Assembly (NCBI GenBank): GCA_020831635.1
Contig: JAFIGC010000018.1
Location: 1 to 57,845, forward strand
Length of the DNA: 57,845 bases
Direction of reading: 5' to 3'
From: Verrucomicrobiota bacterium
GTDB taxonomy: Bacteria > Verrucomicrobiota > Kiritimatiellia > SS1-B-03-39 > UBA6053
The notes beneath the pieces were generated by a model. The model worked only from the letters and a program-made list of their open reading frames with translations, was not told the DNA's origin and searched no databases. Each line of letters opens with the position of its first letter. The first letter of the stretch is position 1. Below, in pieces: positions 8,419 through 57,506 of the stretch. The position numbers and the translations under genes were made by a program.

Positions 8419-9123
8419 TCAAAACAACTCGGTTTGGATGGGTCCCGCGGGCGGAAGCGTCACGGGAAGCACCAAATCGGGGCCTTCTGCGGTGGCGCGG
8501 TTGACCGCCGGGGAAACGGGGTGGACGGTGAAACCGTCCGCGGCCACCGGTTCCAACATGCGCGATAACAGGCTCAAATCGTTCTCCTCTGACTTCAACC
8601 AAGCGGAATGGTCCTCCTCCCGAAGAATCGCGGGCATGCGCGGATGAATACGACGGGTCAAGGCGTTGGGGCGGGTGGTAATGACGGTGCAACTGAGAAT
8701 CATGCCGCCCGATTTGTCGTGCCACTCGTCCCAAAGGCCCGCGAACGCGAAACAGCGTCCATCGCTTCGATGGAAATACATGGGTTGTTTCTTTTTGTTG
8801 GGTGCGGTTTGCCATTCGTACCAGCCATCGGCGGGGATCAGACATCTTTTCCGTCGAAACGCCTGCTTGAAGGAGGGTTTTTCCAAGAGGGTTTCGGCAC
8901 GGGCGTTGATGAGTTTTGCGCCGATGGAAGGGTCGCGGGCCCAATGTGGGATCAGTCCCCATGAAAAAATTTCCATGCGGGGCGCGGGATCGGCCATCCA
9001 CGCGCAGACGGCTTGCGTGGGGGCGATGTTGTAACGGGGCGCCAGTCGGGCGGGCGCGGGGAGTTCGGGAAAATCCTCGCGAATCTGCTTGGGAGTTTTG
9101 GCCAGGGTAAATCGTCCGCACAT
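8419..9123 (-). CDS. SRAP (YedK/HMCES-type) abasic-site crosslinking protein
   Basis: 234 aa starting at MCGRFTLAKT. The start is fixed because Cys2, exposed after Met removal, is the residue that bonds to abasic DNA. Further family landmarks are present: RYNIAPTQ, WGLIPHWA, the Asn of INARAET, the Glu of DGWYEW, and the His of HPRMPAIL. The longer upstream reading would bury Cys2 and is rejected. The family (SRAP, formerly DUF159) shields abasic sites in single-stranded DNA by forming a thiazolidine crosslink. The gene is divergent from hldD with a 99-bp shared upstream region. It ends with a low-complexity PAGPIQTELF tail. Confidence 0.93.
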   Translation of the reverse strand: MCGRFTLAKTPKQIREDFPELPAPARLAPRYNIAPTQAVCAWMADPAPRMEIFSWGLIPHWARDPSIGAKLINARAETLLEKPSFKQAFRRKRCLIPADGWYEWQTAPNKKKQPMYFHRSDGRCFAFAGLWDEWHDKSGGMILSCTVITTRPNALTRRIHPRMPAILREEDHSAWLKSEENDLSLLSRMLEPVAADGFTVHPVSPAVNRATAEGPDLVLPVTLPPAGPIQTELF

Positions 9124-9187
9124 GGTCATGGACGTAACAATTTTTTGGCGGCTTGCAAGCTTCCGTGCACCCGAGGGCACTCCCGTC

Positions 9188-9215
9188 TTGCACTGCGCCG
9201 AATTTTGGTTATTTT
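9188..9215 (+). promoter_or_regulatory. Candidate promoter for hldD
   Basis: TTGCAC at 9188-9193, a 16-base spacer, and TATTTT at 9210-9215, 7 bases before the hldD ATG. The leader would be very short, so this is only a candidate. Confidence 0.3.
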
Positions 9216-9222
9216 CAGACAC

Positions 9223-10188
9223 ATGAAGAAAATATCATATATCGTTACCGGCGCCGCCGGTTTTATCGGCTCCAATCTGGTGAAGGAACTCAACCGTCGC
9301 GGCGAAACCGACCTTCTGCTGGTGGATGACTTGGGCGAAGGGGAAAAATGGCGGAATTTGGTGGGGTTGGCTTACGAAGATATTATCGATCCGGATAATT
9401 TTATGTTGGCCTTGACCGAGGGCTATGAACTGGAAGGCTTGCGGGCGGTCATCCATTTGGGCGCTTGCAGCTCCACCACGGAAACCGATGCCGACTTCCT
9501 TCTCAATAACAATTACCATTATACCCGCAATCTTTGTGACTGGTGCCTCAAGCGAGATGTGCGGTTTGTCTATGCCTCCAGCGCCGCGACCTATGGAGAC
9601 GGTGAACTGGGATATTCCGATGCGGACGAACGCACCCCCGGCTTCAAACCCTTGAACATGTATGGGTACTCCAAGCACATGTTTGATCTCTGGGCGTTGC
9701 GCAATGGTAACCTCGGAAAGATTGCCGGCCTCAAATATTTTAATGTGTACGGTCCCAACGAGCAACACAAGGGCGACATGCGCTCCGTGGTGCACAAGGC
9801 GACCGAGCAAATCCTCGCGGAGGGCAAGGTCAAGCTGTTCAAGAGCCACCGGACGGATTACAAGGACGGCCAGCAGTTGCGCGATTTCGTGTATGTGAAG
9901 GATGCCGTGGACGTTACCCTTTGGTTGGCCCGTCAAAACGCGCCCTCCGGTTTGTTTAATTGCGGGACCGGGGATGCCAGAAGTTGGCTCGATTTGGTCA
10001 ACGCCGTTTTTGCGGCCATGGAAAAATTGCCCCGGATTGAATTCATCGACATGCCCGATCATTTACAACCCAAGTATCAGTATTATACCAAAGCGGATAT
10101 GACGAAATTGCGGGCGGCCGGGTACACGAATCCGTTTACGCCTTTGGAAGACGGCGTCAGGGAAACGGTCGCCACCCTGCGGGGTTAG
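9223..10188 (+). CDS. hldD: ADP-L-glycero-D-manno-heptose 6-epimerase
   Basis: 321 aa from the ATG at 9223. This is an extended short-chain dehydrogenase: the NADP-binding loop VTGAAGFIGSNL, HLGACSSTTETDADF, the catalytic MYGYSKHMFD (Y-x3-K), and KYFNVYGPNEQHKGDMRSV followed by FVYVKDAV are signatures of HldD/RfaD. The enzyme inverts C6 of ADP-D-glycero-heptose to make the L,D-heptose of LPS inner core. It therefore implies an outer membrane with heptose-containing LPS. The gene stands alone, with no other LPS gene adjacent, and converges with the PrsW-like gene three bases downstream. Confidence 0.93.
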   Translation: MKKISYIVTGAAGFIGSNLVKELNRRGETDLLLVDDLGEGEKWRNLVGLAYEDIIDPDNFMLALTEGYELEGLRAVIHLGACSSTTETDADFLLNNNYHYTRNLCDWCLKRDVRFVYASSAATYGDGELGYSDADERTPGFKPLNMYGYSKHMFDLWALRNGNLGKIAGLKYFNVYGPNEQHKGDMRSVVHKATEQILAEGKVKLFKSHRTDYKDGQQLRDFVYVKDAVDVTLWLARQNAPSGLFNCGTGDARSWLDLVNAVFAAMEKLPRIEFIDMPDHLQPKYQYYTKADMTKLRAAGYTNPFTPLEDGVRETVATLRG

Positions 10189-35057: not shown

Positions 35058-35133
35058 AATCGTCAACAAACCTTGACGATTCATCCAGATGTGTTACAAA
35101 ACCTTTACACATTCGAATAAGTGTAGAGGTTTT
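35058..35133 (+). promoter_or_regulatory. AbiE promoter with two inverted-repeat operators
   Basis: TTGACG (35073-35078), 16-base spacer, TACAAA (35095-35100). IR1: aatcgtcaa (35058-35066) / ttgacgatt (35073-35081) covers the -35. IR2: 13-bp arms 35098-35110 and 35121-35133 (12 of 13 pairs, core aaacctttacac / gtgtagaggttt) cover the transcription start and end at the ATG. AbiEi antitoxins are known to repress their own operons through inverted repeats. Confidence 0.7.
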
Positions 35134-35766
35134 ATGATGAGTCTTCGTTATCCAATCGAGAGCAAAACAAACGAAAAGGTGATGCGCGTGTTTGAAAACC
35201 ACGGCGGGGTGCTGCGGTTTTCGGAGGCCGTGCGTCTCGGGGTTCGCCCCGGTACCCTGCGGGAAATGGTGGAAGCGGATCAGCTCGACCAACTGGCGCG
35301 GGGACTCTACAAGCTCAAATCGACGCCGGAACTGAGCGATCCCGATTTGGTCATCGTGGCCGCCAAAATCCCCAAAGCCGTGATTTGCCTCGTGTCTGCC
35401 CTCAATTTTCATCATATCACCACCCACAGCCGGGGCGAAGTGGATATTCTCCTGCCCCGGGGCAGTCACCCGCCCGTGCTTGATTATCCCCCCATCCGTG
35501 TACACAGCGCCGTGCCATCCGCGTACGAGCTTGGACAGGAAGTCCATCACATCGACGGCGTGAACGTCACCGTCACCGATCCCGAAAAAACCCTGGTCGA
35601 TTGTGTGAAACACCGGAACGATCTAGGCAAAGAAATTCTGTTGGAAGCCCTGCGGCTTTACCGTGAACGCCTCCCTCAGCGTCTCAACCGCCTGTTTGCC
35701 TATGCAAAAACCTGCCGGGTGGAGGCGATTCTCCGGCCCTATGTGGAGGCGATGGTTCATGAGTAG
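35134..35766 (+). CDS. abiEi: AbiEi-type antitoxin (type IV toxin-antitoxin)
   Basis: 210 aa from ATG 35134, which directly abuts an inverted repeat. The N-terminal winged helix (about 12-75: VMRVFENHGGVLRFSEAV, LYKLKS) is the DNA-binding part. The C-terminal antitoxin domain (about 80-205) includes AVICLVSALNFHHIT, VDILLPRGSHPP, VTVTDPEKTLVDCVKHRNDLG and EALRLYRERL. It is complete, but its toxin partner is truncated. In known AbiE systems the antitoxin represses the operon and opposes the NTase toxin. A second complete pair lies at 48589-50102. Confidence 0.9.
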   Translation: MMSLRYPIESKTNEKVMRVFENHGGVLRFSEAVRLGVRPGTLREMVEADQLDQLARGLYKLKSTPELSDPDLVIVAAKIPKAVICLVSALNFHHITTHSRGEVDILLPRGSHPPVLDYPPIRVHSAVPSAYELGQEVHHIDGVNVTVTDPEKTLVDCVKHRNDLGKEILLEALRLYRERLPQRLNRLFAYAKTCRVEAILRPYVEAMVHE

Positions 35767-43631: not shown

Positions 43632-44357
43632 TTATTTCCCCATCCCGCGGAGGTGCGCCAAGCCGCCGTCGACATGGATGATTTCTCCGGTGACCCAACT
43701 TTGGGCCGGGTCGATCAGCCATGCGAGGGCGGAGGCAATATCCTCCGGTTTTCCGAGGCGTCCGAGCACGTGCATCTTTTCCGAGACCGCTCGGGCGGGT
43801 CCTGAAGTCAAGTGTCGGGTCATCGGCGTTTCCGTGAGCCCGGGCGCCACTGCATTGATGCGAATGCCTTTGGGCGCATAAGTGGCCGCCGCCGCGCGGG
43901 TGAGTCCTTCCACCGCGCCTTTGGCGGCCGCGATGGACTCGTGGTTCACCATGCCGGTTCGAGCCGCGGCAGAAGACATTAGAGCCACGCTGCCGCCTGC
44001 CTCCATCCGTTTCACCGCCGCCTGCAAGATGGAAAAGCTGCTGAACACATGAATCCGCATCACGTCGGTAAATTCTTTGGCTGTGGTGCGGTGCAGGGGT
44101 TTCAAGAAGAGATTGCCGATGCAATTCACGCACGCGGTCACGGGAATGCCGCTGGATTTTGTCGCCTCAAAAGCTTTGGCGGCACCATCGACCAGGGTGG
44201 CGTCCGCGACGATTTTCGTGACCTCATTCGGCAACCCGTCCAGTTTTTCCGCGTCGCGTCCCACGGCGGTCACGGCCCACCCTTTTTCGAGAAGCAAATC
44301 CGTGAGAGCCCGGCCAATTCCGCCCGTGGCCCCGAAAATGATGGCGTGTTGTTTCAT
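43632..44357 (-). CDS. Atypical SDR oxidoreductase lacking the catalytic tyrosine
   Basis: 241 aa. The cofactor loop FGATGGIGRAL and the strand VNCIGNLFLKPLH are normal. The usual Y-x3-K reads I-A-A-A-K (HESIAAAKGAV), so the tyrosine is replaced by isoleucine. The serine (MSSAAARTG) and lysine are retained. The rest (INAVAPGLTETPMTR, VTGEIIHVDGG) is complete. The gene starts in the ATGA overlap of the photolyase stop, so it is co-translated with it. Either catalysis uses another residue or it binds NAD(P)H without normal SDR turnover. Confidence 0.85.
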   Translation of the reverse strand: MKQHAIIFGATGGIGRALTDLLLEKGWAVTAVGRDAEKLDGLPNEVTKIVADATLVDGAAKAFEATKSSGIPVTACVNCIGNLFLKPLHRTTAKEFTDVMRIHVFSSFSILQAAVKRMEAGGSVALMSSAAARTGMVNHESIAAAKGAVEGLTRAAAATYAPKGIRINAVAPGLTETPMTRHLTSGPARAVSEKMHVLGRLGKPEDIASALAWLIDPAQSWVTGEIIHVDGGLAHLRGMGK

Positions 44358-50102: not shown

Positions 50103-50344
50103 CACAACTCCACAAGAGCACTTCATAAGCCGGGGTAGGGGGGGCATCGACGTTCGAAGTTCGCCTGCCCGCCGAAGCTCGGCAAAGCGTAGGAGGGTTC
50201 AAAGTTCGCTTTCCCGTGGTCCCCCTGCAATCCCTGCGAGGCGAAGCCGCAACCCTGCTATCCCTGCTATGCCCATATCCAGCGAGCCCGCGAGCGCATA
50301 TCCCATATCCAGGCGCGAAGCGCCGCATATCCCATCCCCCTCCC
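50103..50344. repeat. Repeat-rich gap with heptamer tracts and hairpins
   Basis: No gene is visible. cgacgttcgaagttcg and ggttcaaagttcgc flank 50150-50210, and 50265-50340 carries catatcc/cccatat heptamer-like runs around ggcgcgaagcgcc (50312-50324). The tract continues into the 3' end of the phage gene at 50345. Confidence 0.7.
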
Positions 50345-51529
50345 TTATCCAGCCGCGGAGCGGCGAGTATCCCGTATCCCGTATCCCCGCTGAAGGCGCT
50401 CCCTCTCCTCATCCGTCAACTTCTCCCCCCGCCGCAACTTCTCCCGAATGCGTTTCAGTTCCTTGGACCGTTTCTTCGCCTTGTCCTCGTCCCCATCCTC
50501 GTCCCCATCCCGCTTCTTCGCCTTTGCCCGACGCACCGCCAGCGACGCTTCCCGGGCCTCCTCCGTCCAGTTGTTCCGCAACGCCCACTTCGCTTCTTGG
50601 ACATGCAAGGAAGCCATCGCCCGGACTGCGGCCAGCCGCGCGGCATTCCCCAAGGCGTTCCCTTCATACAAAGCCTGAACAGCCTCCAAATCACCCTGAA
50701 CCGGATCATCCGTCTCCACCAGCCGACAATGGCAATGTTCCCCGCAAAACAGCCGCCCCGACTTCGGACGCAGCTCCGCCGCCTCCCAGGCCGCTTCCGT
50801 CTGCACCATCCCCGCCAACGCCGTGCAACTCGGACAATGCCGATCCTCTGGACTATTCCCCAGCGCCCACTTCAACCGCTTCTCCTCCTCGGCATTCGCG
50901 AAAACTTCCTCCACGACGTTCGACGTTCGATGTTCAATGTTCGAAGTTCGCATTTCCCCCTGACCTCTACCCTCGGCCCTCTGACCTCGATTACTCAACG
51001 GAACCAGCCCCTTCAAATTCGGATCATTCGTCACTGCAGCATTCAACAAACGCACCGGACGCACCCGTCCATCTCCGAGATCCACGCAATCTGACCGAGA
51101 CCAAACCGGCGACAGAAACCGATACCGCCCGCCACGAACCGCCGCCTCTCCCGTGTCCGACCAACGAATTTCCGCCCAAAGCCCCAAATCTTGAGAACCA
51201 TTACCCCGCAACCGGGAACCAGCAACCTCTTCTCCCCCCGAACCCGCAACCTTCAACCCGTAACCTTCAACACGCGCTTCCAGCGCGGTAATCCAGCCCG
51301 CCGCCTCCGACTTGTTCCCCGCATCCAGCGAAAAATGGTCAAAGTCGATCAGCAGGCCGGCAAAATTCCTTGCAGCCGCCTCCACCCCAAACGCCGCCGC
51401 CATCGCCCCGCACGCCTCCGCATCCACCACCTGGACAACACCCGAAGCCGCATGGGGGAAAACCCCCAGCGGCGCCACATGATACCACCCGTCCTCCGGC
51501 AACGAAAACGACTCCCGATTCAAAATCAA
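50345..51529 (-). CDS. Mu-like prophage protease I / head protein fusion (decayed phage gene)
   Basis: 394 aa. The N-terminal 170 residues match Mu-type gpI protease/scaffold (HVAPLGVFPHAASGVVQVVD, NFAGLLIDFDHFSLDAGNKS, SDTGEAAVRGGRYRFLSPVW). Residues about 225-285 carry a Cys/His cluster of the kind seen in Mu F-like head proteins (HCPSCTALAG, LFCGEHCHCRLV). The charged tail (KRLKWAL... EEREERLQRGYGIRD-type) is partly built from heptamer repeat sequence. Start unclear. No other capsid genes adjoin. A broken second copy of its 5' part lies at 57299-57470. Confidence 0.65.
   Translation of the reverse strand: MILNRESFSLPEDGWYHVAPLGVFPHAASGVVQVVDAEACGAMAAAFGVEAAARNFAGLLIDFDHFSLDAGNKSEAAGWITALEARVEGYGLKVAGSGGEEVAGSRLRGNGSQDLGLWAEIRWSDTGEAAVRGGRYRFLSPVWSRSDCVDLGDGRVRPVRLLNAAVTNDPNLKGLVPLSNRGQRAEGRGQGEMRTSNIEHRTSNVVEEVFANAEEEKRLKWALGNSPEDRHCPSCTALAGMVQTEAAWEAAELRPKSGRLFCGEHCHCRLVETDDPVQGDLEAVQALYEGNALGNAARLAAVRAMASLHVQEAKWALRNNWTEEAREASLAVRRAKAKKRDGDEDGDEDKAKKRSKELKRIREKLRRGEKLTDEERERLQRGYGIRDTRRSAAG
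50914..50950. repeat. Five 7-bp tandem repeats inside the phage protease gene
   Basis: Units cgacgtt, cgacgtt, cgatgtt, caatgtt, cgaagtt in a row. They add a SNIEHRTSNVV stretch to the reading frame. The 7-bp period recurs at 50150-50165. Confidence 0.8.
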
Positions 51530-51649
51530 AACATTCGTCTACCCCGGCGAGGAGATCAACGTTTCCCCTCATCGGATGTCGGATCCACCGCAGGTAAGCC
51601 GTATGGTGGTGTCGGTGGCTCGGTAGCTCTTGCGGTCACTCGGTGCCAA

Positions 51650-54346
51650 TCACTTCGTTTCGTCCAGCACCGCCCGCACCTTCTTGGAAATCTCAATAAA
51701 GGTGAACGGCTTCTGAAGGAAGGTATCTGTCCCGCCTGTGACTCCGTGGCGGATCAAAGCATCGTCCGTATATCCGCTCATGAACAAAATTTTTATATCC
51801 GGATGTCGGGACCGCAGGGCTTCAGCCAATTTCACTCCACCCATGTCGGGCATCACAACGTCCGTCAGCACCAGATGGATCGGGCCGGAATGTCGCTCCG
51901 CGATGTGGATGGCATCGGTCCCGCCGGCTGCCACCAGAACCGTGTAGCCTTGAGTTTCGAGGGCGATACGTGCAATTTTTCGGACCCCCTCTTCGTCTTC
52001 GACCATCAAGATCGTCTCGGTCCCATGGAGCGGACCGATGTGATGGCCCTCGCCGTCTGGTCCGGGAAGTCGGTCGTCCACGGCGGGGAAGAGGATTCTA
52101 AACGTGGTGCCGATCCCGACCTCACTGTCCACGCTGATGTGGGCGTTACTCTGCTTGACGATCCCGAACACGGTCGCCAGCCCGAGTCCCGTCCCCTTTC
52201 CCGGCTCCTTCGTCGTATAGAACGGCTCGAAGATCTGGGACTTCACCGCGTCAGACATCCCGTGGCCGGTGTCGGTCACGCACAGTTGGGCAAAGCGGCC
52301 AGGTCTCAAGTCGGGGTAGTCCAACAGCTTCTGACCCAGCATGAACTCGTGCGTCTCGATCGTCAGCCGCCCACCCGTAGGCATGGCGTCACGGGCGTTC
52401 ACGCACAGGTTCATGACAACCTGGTCCACCTGTCCAGGGTCAGCCATTATCCGCGGCAGATTCGGGTCTAGGATCGTGACGATGGCGATATCTTCCCCGA
52501 GCAGACGTTCCAACATCCGCTGCGTCAGAGCCACCCGGTTGTTCAGATCGTGGACGACGGGCTCGATTACCTGTTTACGGCTGAAGGCGAGGAGCTGCTG
52601 AGTCAGGGCTGCCGCTCGATCCCCCGCCTTCCGGATCTCAGCCACATGCCATCGTTGCGGGTTGGTTTCGGGCATATCCAGCAGCAGCATGTCGCTCAGG
52701 CCAAAGATGATCGTCAGGAGGTTGTTAAAGTCGTGGGCCACACCGCCCGCCAACCGTCCGATGGCATCCATTTTCTGAGACTGCTGGAAAGCCCGTTCCA
52801 GCGTCCGCCGCTCAGTCACATCGGCGAGCACCCCGACATAGTTGCAGATTTTTCCACTCTCGTCATGCACCGGGGTTAAGAACAGGGCATTCCAAAATGG
52901 CGTCCCGTCCCGCTTGTAGTTAAGGATTTCGACCGAACACTCCCTCCCGGCGAGGATCGCTTCGTGCATCACCCGAACGGTCGCCGGGTCGGTGTCCGGG
53001 CCTTGCAGGAATCGGCAGTTCCTCCCCAGCACTTCGTCGGTCGCGTACCCCGTGATGCCCTCGAACCCCCGGCTGGCGTAGATGATCGGATTGTCGGCCT
53101 GATTTGGATCCGTGATGATGATGCCCTGCGACAGAGCCTGAATGGCCCAGTCTCGAAAGCGCAGCCCCTCCTCGATCTGTCGTTGTTCGGTTCTGTCCTC
53201 GCAGACACCAACCCATTCCAGCACGGACCCTTCCTTATCAAGAATCGGCACCGCCCGGGCAGTGATTTGCCGATATTCCCCGTCCGCCCGACGGACTCGA
53301 TAATCCACCTCAAACCGCTCTTTTGTCTCCAGCGAGTGCCGCCACCGCCGGGCAGTCCGTCCCCGGTCGGCGGGGTGGAGGGCATTCATCCAGCCCCATC
53401 CCTCAACCTCCTCGTCCGGAAATCCCGTGTACTCGCCCCAGGTCGGGGTGGCGATGAAGTTTTCCCCCATCGCGTCGGCTGTCCAGACGACTTGGGCGGT
53501 GGCCGTGATGAGCGACCGGAAGCGGGTCTCGCTCAGTCGCAGCTCGTTTTCAGCCGATTTCCGCTCCGTCAAGTCGCGGAGCACTTTGACGAACCCCCGC
53601 ACCCCACCGGCGGCGTCGCGGATGACGCTCATCGTCCCGTTGGCCCAGAACAGGGTGCCGTCCTTGCGTATTCGCCAGCGATCCCCGTAAGCGTGACCTT
53701 TGGCGGCAGCCTCCTCGATCTCGTTTTGCGGAACTCCGCTCGCCACGTCCTCGGGCCTGTATAACAGCATGCGGTTCTGCCCAATAATTTCGTCGGCGGT
53801 GTAGCCAAAGATGTGGACCGCCCCTCCGTTCTAGGTTTGAACGGTGCCGTTGATGTCGAGCATGAAGATGGCATAGTCATCGATGCTATCGACAAGAAGC
53901 CGAAACCGCGCCTCGCTGGCCCCCAACGCCTCCTCGACCCGCCTCCGCTCCGTGATGTCCCGGGTGATCACGGCGAACCCGACGTCGCGGTCGTACTCCC
54001 GCAAAGCGGTCACGGTTAAAATGGCTAAAAAATGGGAACCGTCCTTACGGGTCCGCATTGACTCCACTTCGCACCTCCCGTCCGCAAGGGCTGCGTCCAT
54101 GACATCTCGCGGCTTGCCGCTCGCCACGTCCTCGGCTGTGAAAAGCTGGCCGAACGGTTGGCCCAGCATCTCAACAGCGGTATAGCCATTGCACCGCTCA
54201 GCTCCGCTGTTCCAACTAACAACCGTCCCCTCCGGATCAAGCAGATAGATTGCGTAATCCTTGACGCTCTCGACCAGGAGGCGGAACGGGTCGGCGGCCT
54301 GGTGCAGCAGGGTTGTCGTGAATGGGGCGTCTTTGTTGTTTTTCAT
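51650..54346 (-). pseudogene. LOV/PAS hybrid histidine kinase interrupted by one amber codon
   Basis: The reading frame from ATG 54346 (or 54370) to 51650 spans about 900 codons with one in-frame TAG at 53831-53833, where PAS consensus expects Trp (VQT-stop-NGGAVHIFGYTADEIIG). Part A (54346-53834): two PAS domains. Part B (53830-51650): the rest of PAS2, a PAS3, a LOV domain with photoactive Cys codon 53015-53017 in GRNCRFLQGPDTD, a kinase core (GGVAHDFNNLLT, NLCVNARDAMPTGG, GKGTGLGLATV) and a receiver (VLTDVVMPDMGG, FMSGYT). Part B could still be translated from ATG 53770. A blue-light-responsive hybrid kinase, sitting between phage remnants. Confidence 0.85.
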
Positions 54347-54432
54347 AAAGCTCTCCACGGCCACCCGCATGCTAAGGCCGTTTTCCAGACTCCGGGACGA
54401 AGGGTGAGTTTCGTCTTCATGACATTATTTTA

Positions 54433-54965
54433 TCATATCACTATACCCATGTCCGCAACAATCTGAGAAAATTTCTTCTTTCTTTCAAATCTGGCCTCTA
54501 TCATCTCCATTCCCATTCGTCCGAAAATTCCGCTCCGCCCGATCACTGCGCTATCCATCCTACCCGCCTGCGACAGGATCGTCAGCAGACCCCCCGTCGC
54601 TGTCAGCGTGATCTGACGGTCCACATACTCCAGAGTGAACAAGAACGACACCGCGTCCCGGAAATTATCAATCCGGTCATACGCATCTCGCAGCACCGCC
54701 GCCTGTTCCCCCGCCAGCACCGGATCCCCCCAATCACCTCCCGGATATCCCAGTCCACCGCCAACAGCGCCGCCCGACGCCGCTGCAGCACCGCATAAAT
54801 CATCGGGTCCGACCGCTCCATGTAGTGATAAAACCACTGCAAATCCGTATACTCACCACGTTCCCCCGCCTCCAGCAACGAAACCAGCCTCGGCAGCCCC
54901 AGTCCCCGAAGCGGATTGTACCCATCCCTCCGCAGATGATCCTTGCTCTGATAAATCGAAACCAT
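54433..54965 (-). pseudogene. Mu-like phage portal (gp29/DUF935) remnant with frameshift
   Basis: From 54965 the frame reads MVSIYQSKDHLRRDGYNPL, LVSLLEAGERGEYTDLQWF, YHYMERSDPMIYAVLQRRR and LLAVDWDIREV, the N-terminal pattern of Mu portal proteins. Near 54728 the frame is lost and the next frame continues DPVLAGEQAAVLRDAYDRI... up to a stop at 54433. The rest of the ~500-residue portal is absent. A decayed prophage gene on the same strand as the protease I gene, in the order expected for Mu (portal upstream of I). Confidence 0.7.
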
Positions 54966-55043
54966 ACCCAAGCCAGGAAATCAACCCCCGGGAACGCGGG
55001 CATCCTGCCCGCTCATCCAACAGAAACGCCAATCACCAGATGA

Positions 55044-57282: not shown

Positions 57283-57298
57283 ATCCTTCTACCCAACG

Positions 57299-57470
57299 CC
57301 GCAATCGCCCCGCAGGCCTCCGCATCCACCACTTGCACCACACCGGCAGCCGCATGGGGGAACATCCCCAGCGGCGCCACATGATACCACCCGTCCTCCG
57401 GCAACGAAACGACTCCCGATTCAAAATCAATGCATTCATCTACCCCAGCGAGGAAATCAACGTCTACCCG
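57299..57470 (-). pseudogene. Second, broken copy of the Mu-like protease I 5' end
   Basis: Closely similar to 51399-51560 (shared blocks such as cggcgccacatgataccacc and cgtcctccggcaacgaaa), but copy 2 has one A fewer (gcaacgaaacgac), which shifts the frame. It reads LPEDGWYHVAPLGMFPHAAAG on one frame only, then stops. No downstream portion of the gene follows, so it is a dead fragment. Confidence 0.75.
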
Positions 57471-57506
57471 CACTGATTTGTTCGGTGGCGGAGTTGGTTC
57501 GTTATT

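Follow-up and report, generated by a model that had tools for sequence, protein, structure and literature searches.

A single amber codon interrupts a LOV-domain hybrid histidine kinase gene in an apparent Mu-like prophage remnant of a Verrucomicrobiota bacterium

Results and Discussion

An interrupted reading frame for a LOV hybrid histidine kinase

We analyzed a 57,845-nucleotide stretch of DNA from a Verrucomicrobiota bacterium (contig JAFIGC010000018.1, positions 1 to 57,845; hereafter the window) and identified on its minus strand a gene for a hybrid histidine kinase whose frame is interrupted once. The features of the gene are:

51650-54346, minus strand: gene for a LOV-domain hybrid histidine kinase (898 codons and a stop), interrupted once
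53831-53833, minus strand: in-frame amber codon (TAG), codon 172, within PAS2
52811-53128, minus strand: LOV domain (residues 407-512), whose motif GRNCRFLQ retains the photoactive Cys and whose active-site Gln is replaced by Leu (GVLADVTE)
51650-53770, minus strand: downstream open frame of 706 amino acids, first ATG inside PAS2, weak ribosome-binding site

The frame is open from ATG 54346, which has a plausible ribosome-binding site, to TGA 51650, and the TAG is the single internal stop in its 898 codons, as a preliminary description of the sequence had noted. The list of open reading frames shows the gene as two halves (53831-54370, 179 amino acids; 51650-53770, 706 amino acids). Because dozens of stops are expected in a random frame of this length, Pfam domains extend throughout it, and GC3 is 0.75 both before and after the TAG, we regard the frame as one gene with one interruption. 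Pfam matches along the read-through frame comprise four stretches with a PAS fold and the HisKA, HATPase_c and receiver domains, in the order PAS1 - PAS2 - PAS3 - LOV - HisKA - HATPase_c - receiver, with PAS2 (residues 147-258) unbroken across the stop position. The HisKA, HATPase_c and receiver domains of a hybrid histidine kinase are all present with their conserved catalytic motifs.

The amber codon stands where relatives carry tryptophan

For an alignment of PAS2 we replaced the stop by X and included every PAS domain from 24 loci of relatives. Trp occupied the stop column in each of the 13 PAS domains that belong to this subtype (37-53% identity to PAS2), and V, A, L, I and other residues occupied it in more distant domains. 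PAS1 of the same kinase also has Trp at the position equivalent to the stop. The expectation that a TGG codon had stood there is thus supported, and the stop, placed at a residue conserved in intact relatives, is of the kind that marks a pseudogene. Since a single transition converts TGG into TAG and the relatives carry Trp, a nonsense mutation, or an error that mimics one, is the simplest explanation, and the alignment would most simply make the TAG a nonsense change of TGG.

The LOV domain lacks the conserved active-site glutamine

The motif GRNCRFLQ conforms to the LOV signature GXNCRFLQ with its photoactive cysteine, and the best PDB matches of the domain are solved LOV domains (E 6e-37). 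We take the LOV fold as settled by this sequence similarity, which, together with the Pfam matches, supports the initial reading of the domains as those of a LOV hybrid histidine kinase. The signature on which that reading relied stood with regard to the motif and its cysteine but not to the rest of the active site, because Leu replaces the conserved Gln on strand Iβ. All six LOV domains from the phylum that bear the Cys keep the Gln, as do all three plasmid relatives. About 350 natural LOV receptors without the active-site Gln have been described, with Leu or Ile predominating as replacements (Dietler et al., PMC9098866). Signaling is generally retained with Leu, and the Gln is reported to be dispensable for signaling (PMC9098866). 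On these grounds the domain is probably a LOV-deltaQ receptor rather than a canonical LOV domain, and it would add one Leu-for-Gln sequence to that set. It shares with LOV-deltaQ receptors the retained Cys and one of the two predominant replacements (PMC9098866); it differs from them in that the kinase gene is interrupted and its photochemistry is predicted from sequence. Because the Cys is kept and signaling generally survives the Leu replacement (PMC9098866), we infer that the intact ancestor was plausibly a working blue-light hybrid kinase. Such an ancestor would have sensed blue light via a flavin-Cys adduct of the LOV domain, and the light signal would have changed the flow of phosphate from HisKA to the protein's own receiver.

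Relatives and distribution of the kinase

The C-terminal part of the kinase (residues 401-896) aligned with PRK13557 (NF010076) over nearly the whole length of the model with a score of 558.4 bits, below the curated cut-off of 631. The LOV-HK-RR hybrid kinases of this NCBIfam family (NF010076/PRK13557, 'histidine kinase family protein') have the same order of LOV, HisKA, HATPase_c and receiver, and their plasmid copies in Pseudomonas, Caballeronia and Comamonadaceae share 41-42% identity with the window kinase across 99% of its C-terminal 501 residues. The window kinase differs from these proteins in its three extra N-terminal PAS domains, in the Leu for Gln and in the TAG interruption. Tandem-PAS sensor kinases from rhizobial, Caulobacter and Paraburkholderia replicons share the PAS1-PAS2 subtype (DYAIYMLDP...WN.GA..IKGY) and are up to 53% identical to PAS2; unlike the window kinase, they have the Trp codon intact, and none of their PAS domains bears a LOV signature.

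No orthologue of the kinase was found in 346 genomes of the class, and of 388 genomes from the phylum only 8 had a match to the LOV domain, seven of them lying outside the host's class. The kinase therefore looks foreign and horizontally acquired. Searches at strict thresholds of genus, family and class genomes retrieved no second copy, nor did searches of viral contigs, plasmids and phages. A phage-borne origin was considered and rejected: phage records held no full-length relative, and viral contigs held none.

An apparent remnant of a decaying Mu-like prophage surrounds the gene

The kinase gene sits between a truncated Mu-like portal gene (upstream) and a Mu-like I protease gene (downstream):

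54433-54971, minus strand: Mu-like portal gene remnant, frameshifted (two frames), with internal deletions
50345-51529, minus strand: Mu-like prophage I protease gene, whose start codon is ATG in a congener and ACG here
57297-57472, minus strand: truncated duplicate of the beginning of the Mu I gene, sharing about 90% identity with 51395-51571

The two flanking genes follow the phage gene order of Mu-like prophages (Pfam Portal_Mu and Mu-like_Pro), which the window, in contrast to such prophages, holds as fragments only. A full-length portal gene is present in three other members of the family and absent from this genome. In the congener G004 (locus L059), an unrelated 273-amino-acid gene (L059:8813-9634) sits between the same two junctions, left and right, and its product had no match among Pfam, PADLOC and NCBIfam models. 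Genome G010 has an open-reading Mu-like gene set with a 518-amino-acid portal gene and ~2.4 kb of other genes between the portal and I genes. Given the broken portal and protease genes, the additional copy of the I gene and the differing contents of the interval in G004 and G010, the region looks like a decaying prophage remnant in which the portal-protease interval varies between species.

Several smaller features were also recorded at this site. A direct repeat of ~177 bp (51395-51571 and 57297-57472), made up of the leader and the beginning of the Mu I gene, flanks a 5.9-kb stretch with the kinase. Short GAACATCGAACGTCGAAC-type repeats lie at 50934-50967 and 50147-50180, one of them within the Mu I coding frame. 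Judged by its repeat content, the organism may belong to Kiritimatiellota or to a group close to it. Inspection by eye of the right junction revealed no integron-type cassette site (GTTRRRY core).

UAG shows no sign of being recoded

An intact release factor RF1 (494.8 bits against a curated cut-off of 400), RF2 and an ArfB-like factor are all encoded in the genome, a draft of 6.0 Mb in 308 contigs with a completeness of 96.5%. Using Rfam to find tRNA genes and ARAGORN to assign anticodons, we searched for an amber suppressor and found no tRNA with the UAG-reading anticodon CTA among the 43 tRNAs above cut-off in this 96.5% complete genome, in which one Trp tRNA (CCA) is present. The kinase had 42 matches in its own genome, and the 41 others contained no true internal stop; a candidate second split kinase (L007) was rejected, its single TGA being the natural end of the gene. 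In the window, TAG terminates 7 of 39 long non-overlapping frames, the upstream half of the kinase included, and the TAG end of an ADP-heptose 6-epimerase gene (9013-10188) coincides with the expected C-terminus, where the family profile ends. The signs of UAG reassignment or suppression, namely a UAG-decoding tRNA, loss of RF1 and recurrent in-frame TAG, are thus absent, and we rejected amber recoding on the combined evidence of tRNAs, release factors, kinase paralogues and terminators.

Probable recent inactivation and its alternatives

In the kinase-receiver part, 45 of the 46 positions invariant in ten homologues are kept and one is changed; for comparison, leaving out each intact homologue in turn gave 0-4 changed positions. 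Because the kinase part shows no decay, the stop is either recent or not real. Among the explanations first proposed (recent loss of function, sequencing error, and amber readthrough or reinitiation), the degraded prophage genes around the kinase and the normal termination machinery favor recent loss of function, and readthrough found no support. We consider it probable that a single recent nonsense mutation (TGG to TAG) in PAS2 inactivated a foreign LOV hybrid kinase gene carried as cargo in an eroded Mu-like prophage remnant. The gene would have been acquired horizontally and become part of the remnant before the mutation inactivated it, and would now yield a useless 171-residue PAS fragment. 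We thus infer a genuine mutation, not a consensus error, and a recent one; against this reading, the gene carries one lesion only, and intact kinase motifs are also expected of an intact gene. The locus would then record an apparent gain and subsequent loss of a multi-PAS LOV kinase inside a prophage remnant, in a lineage seemingly otherwise without LOV domains.

The main rival is an error in the consensus or assembly at the TAG, which would leave an intact gene for a working LOV kinase of 898 residues. The rest of the frame is intact, the lesion amounts to a single base substitution in a draft assembly of 308 contigs, and genus, family and class genomes and viral contigs supplied no independent copy for comparison. 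Yet base errors that create stops are rare per gene, and the neighboring prophage genes are broken independently, so that we judge such an error unlikely.

Initiation downstream of the stop, which would still produce a shorter LOV-HK-receiver protein resembling the LOV hybrid kinases of 530-540 residues, seems to us a doubtful prospect. The LOV-HK-receiver core aligns to positions 35-535 of the 540 of NCBIfam PRK13557 and bears no sign of decay, and two in-frame GTG codons, one ahead of PAS3 (53584) and one ahead of the LOV domain (53224), are preceded by better ribosome-binding sites than ATG 53770 is. Chance alone, however, often places purine-rich stretches upstream of GTG codons in a gene rich in G+C, and messages with an early stop usually suffer polarity or decay. 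The reinitiation product first proposed (53770-51650) is possible but unsupported, given the weak ribosome-binding site of its ATG; moreover, it would not simply lose the first PAS domains, because it starts midway through PAS2, at residue 193, rather than at a domain boundary, cutting that domain in half. The bolder proposal that the Mu-like remnant of the genus is an exchangeable cargo slot, holding here a LOV-deltaQ kinase still expressed from an internal start as a classical short LOV-HK-receiver protein, appears very unlikely.

Programmed amber readthrough or UAG reassignment yielding the full protein has in its favor solely that the frame stays in register past the stop, and the missing UAG-reading tRNA, the intact RF1, the 41 other uninterrupted kinase matches and the normal TAG terminators make it highly improbable. 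Recent inactivation remains our preferred reading; the locus has no bearing on genetic-code recoding and is most likely an ordinary case overall, with nothing using the genetic code in a new way.

Neighboring genes and light context

The photolyase gene that the preliminary description had placed at 44354 is confirmed as far as its Pfam family, DPRP (PF04244), and the light-exposed lifestyle proposed from it is only weakly suggested. Adjoining the prophage remnant, the segment 47018-50102 encodes a Fic protein (SoFic-like, PADLOC) and an intact-looking AbiEi/AbiEii toxin-antitoxin pair. A tRNA-Met gene (46748) lies near these Fic and AbiE genes, and two congeners (L059 and L062) likewise have a tRNA-Met close to the Mu I remnant. 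A second AbiEi-type antitoxin gene is present in the window at 35089-35766.
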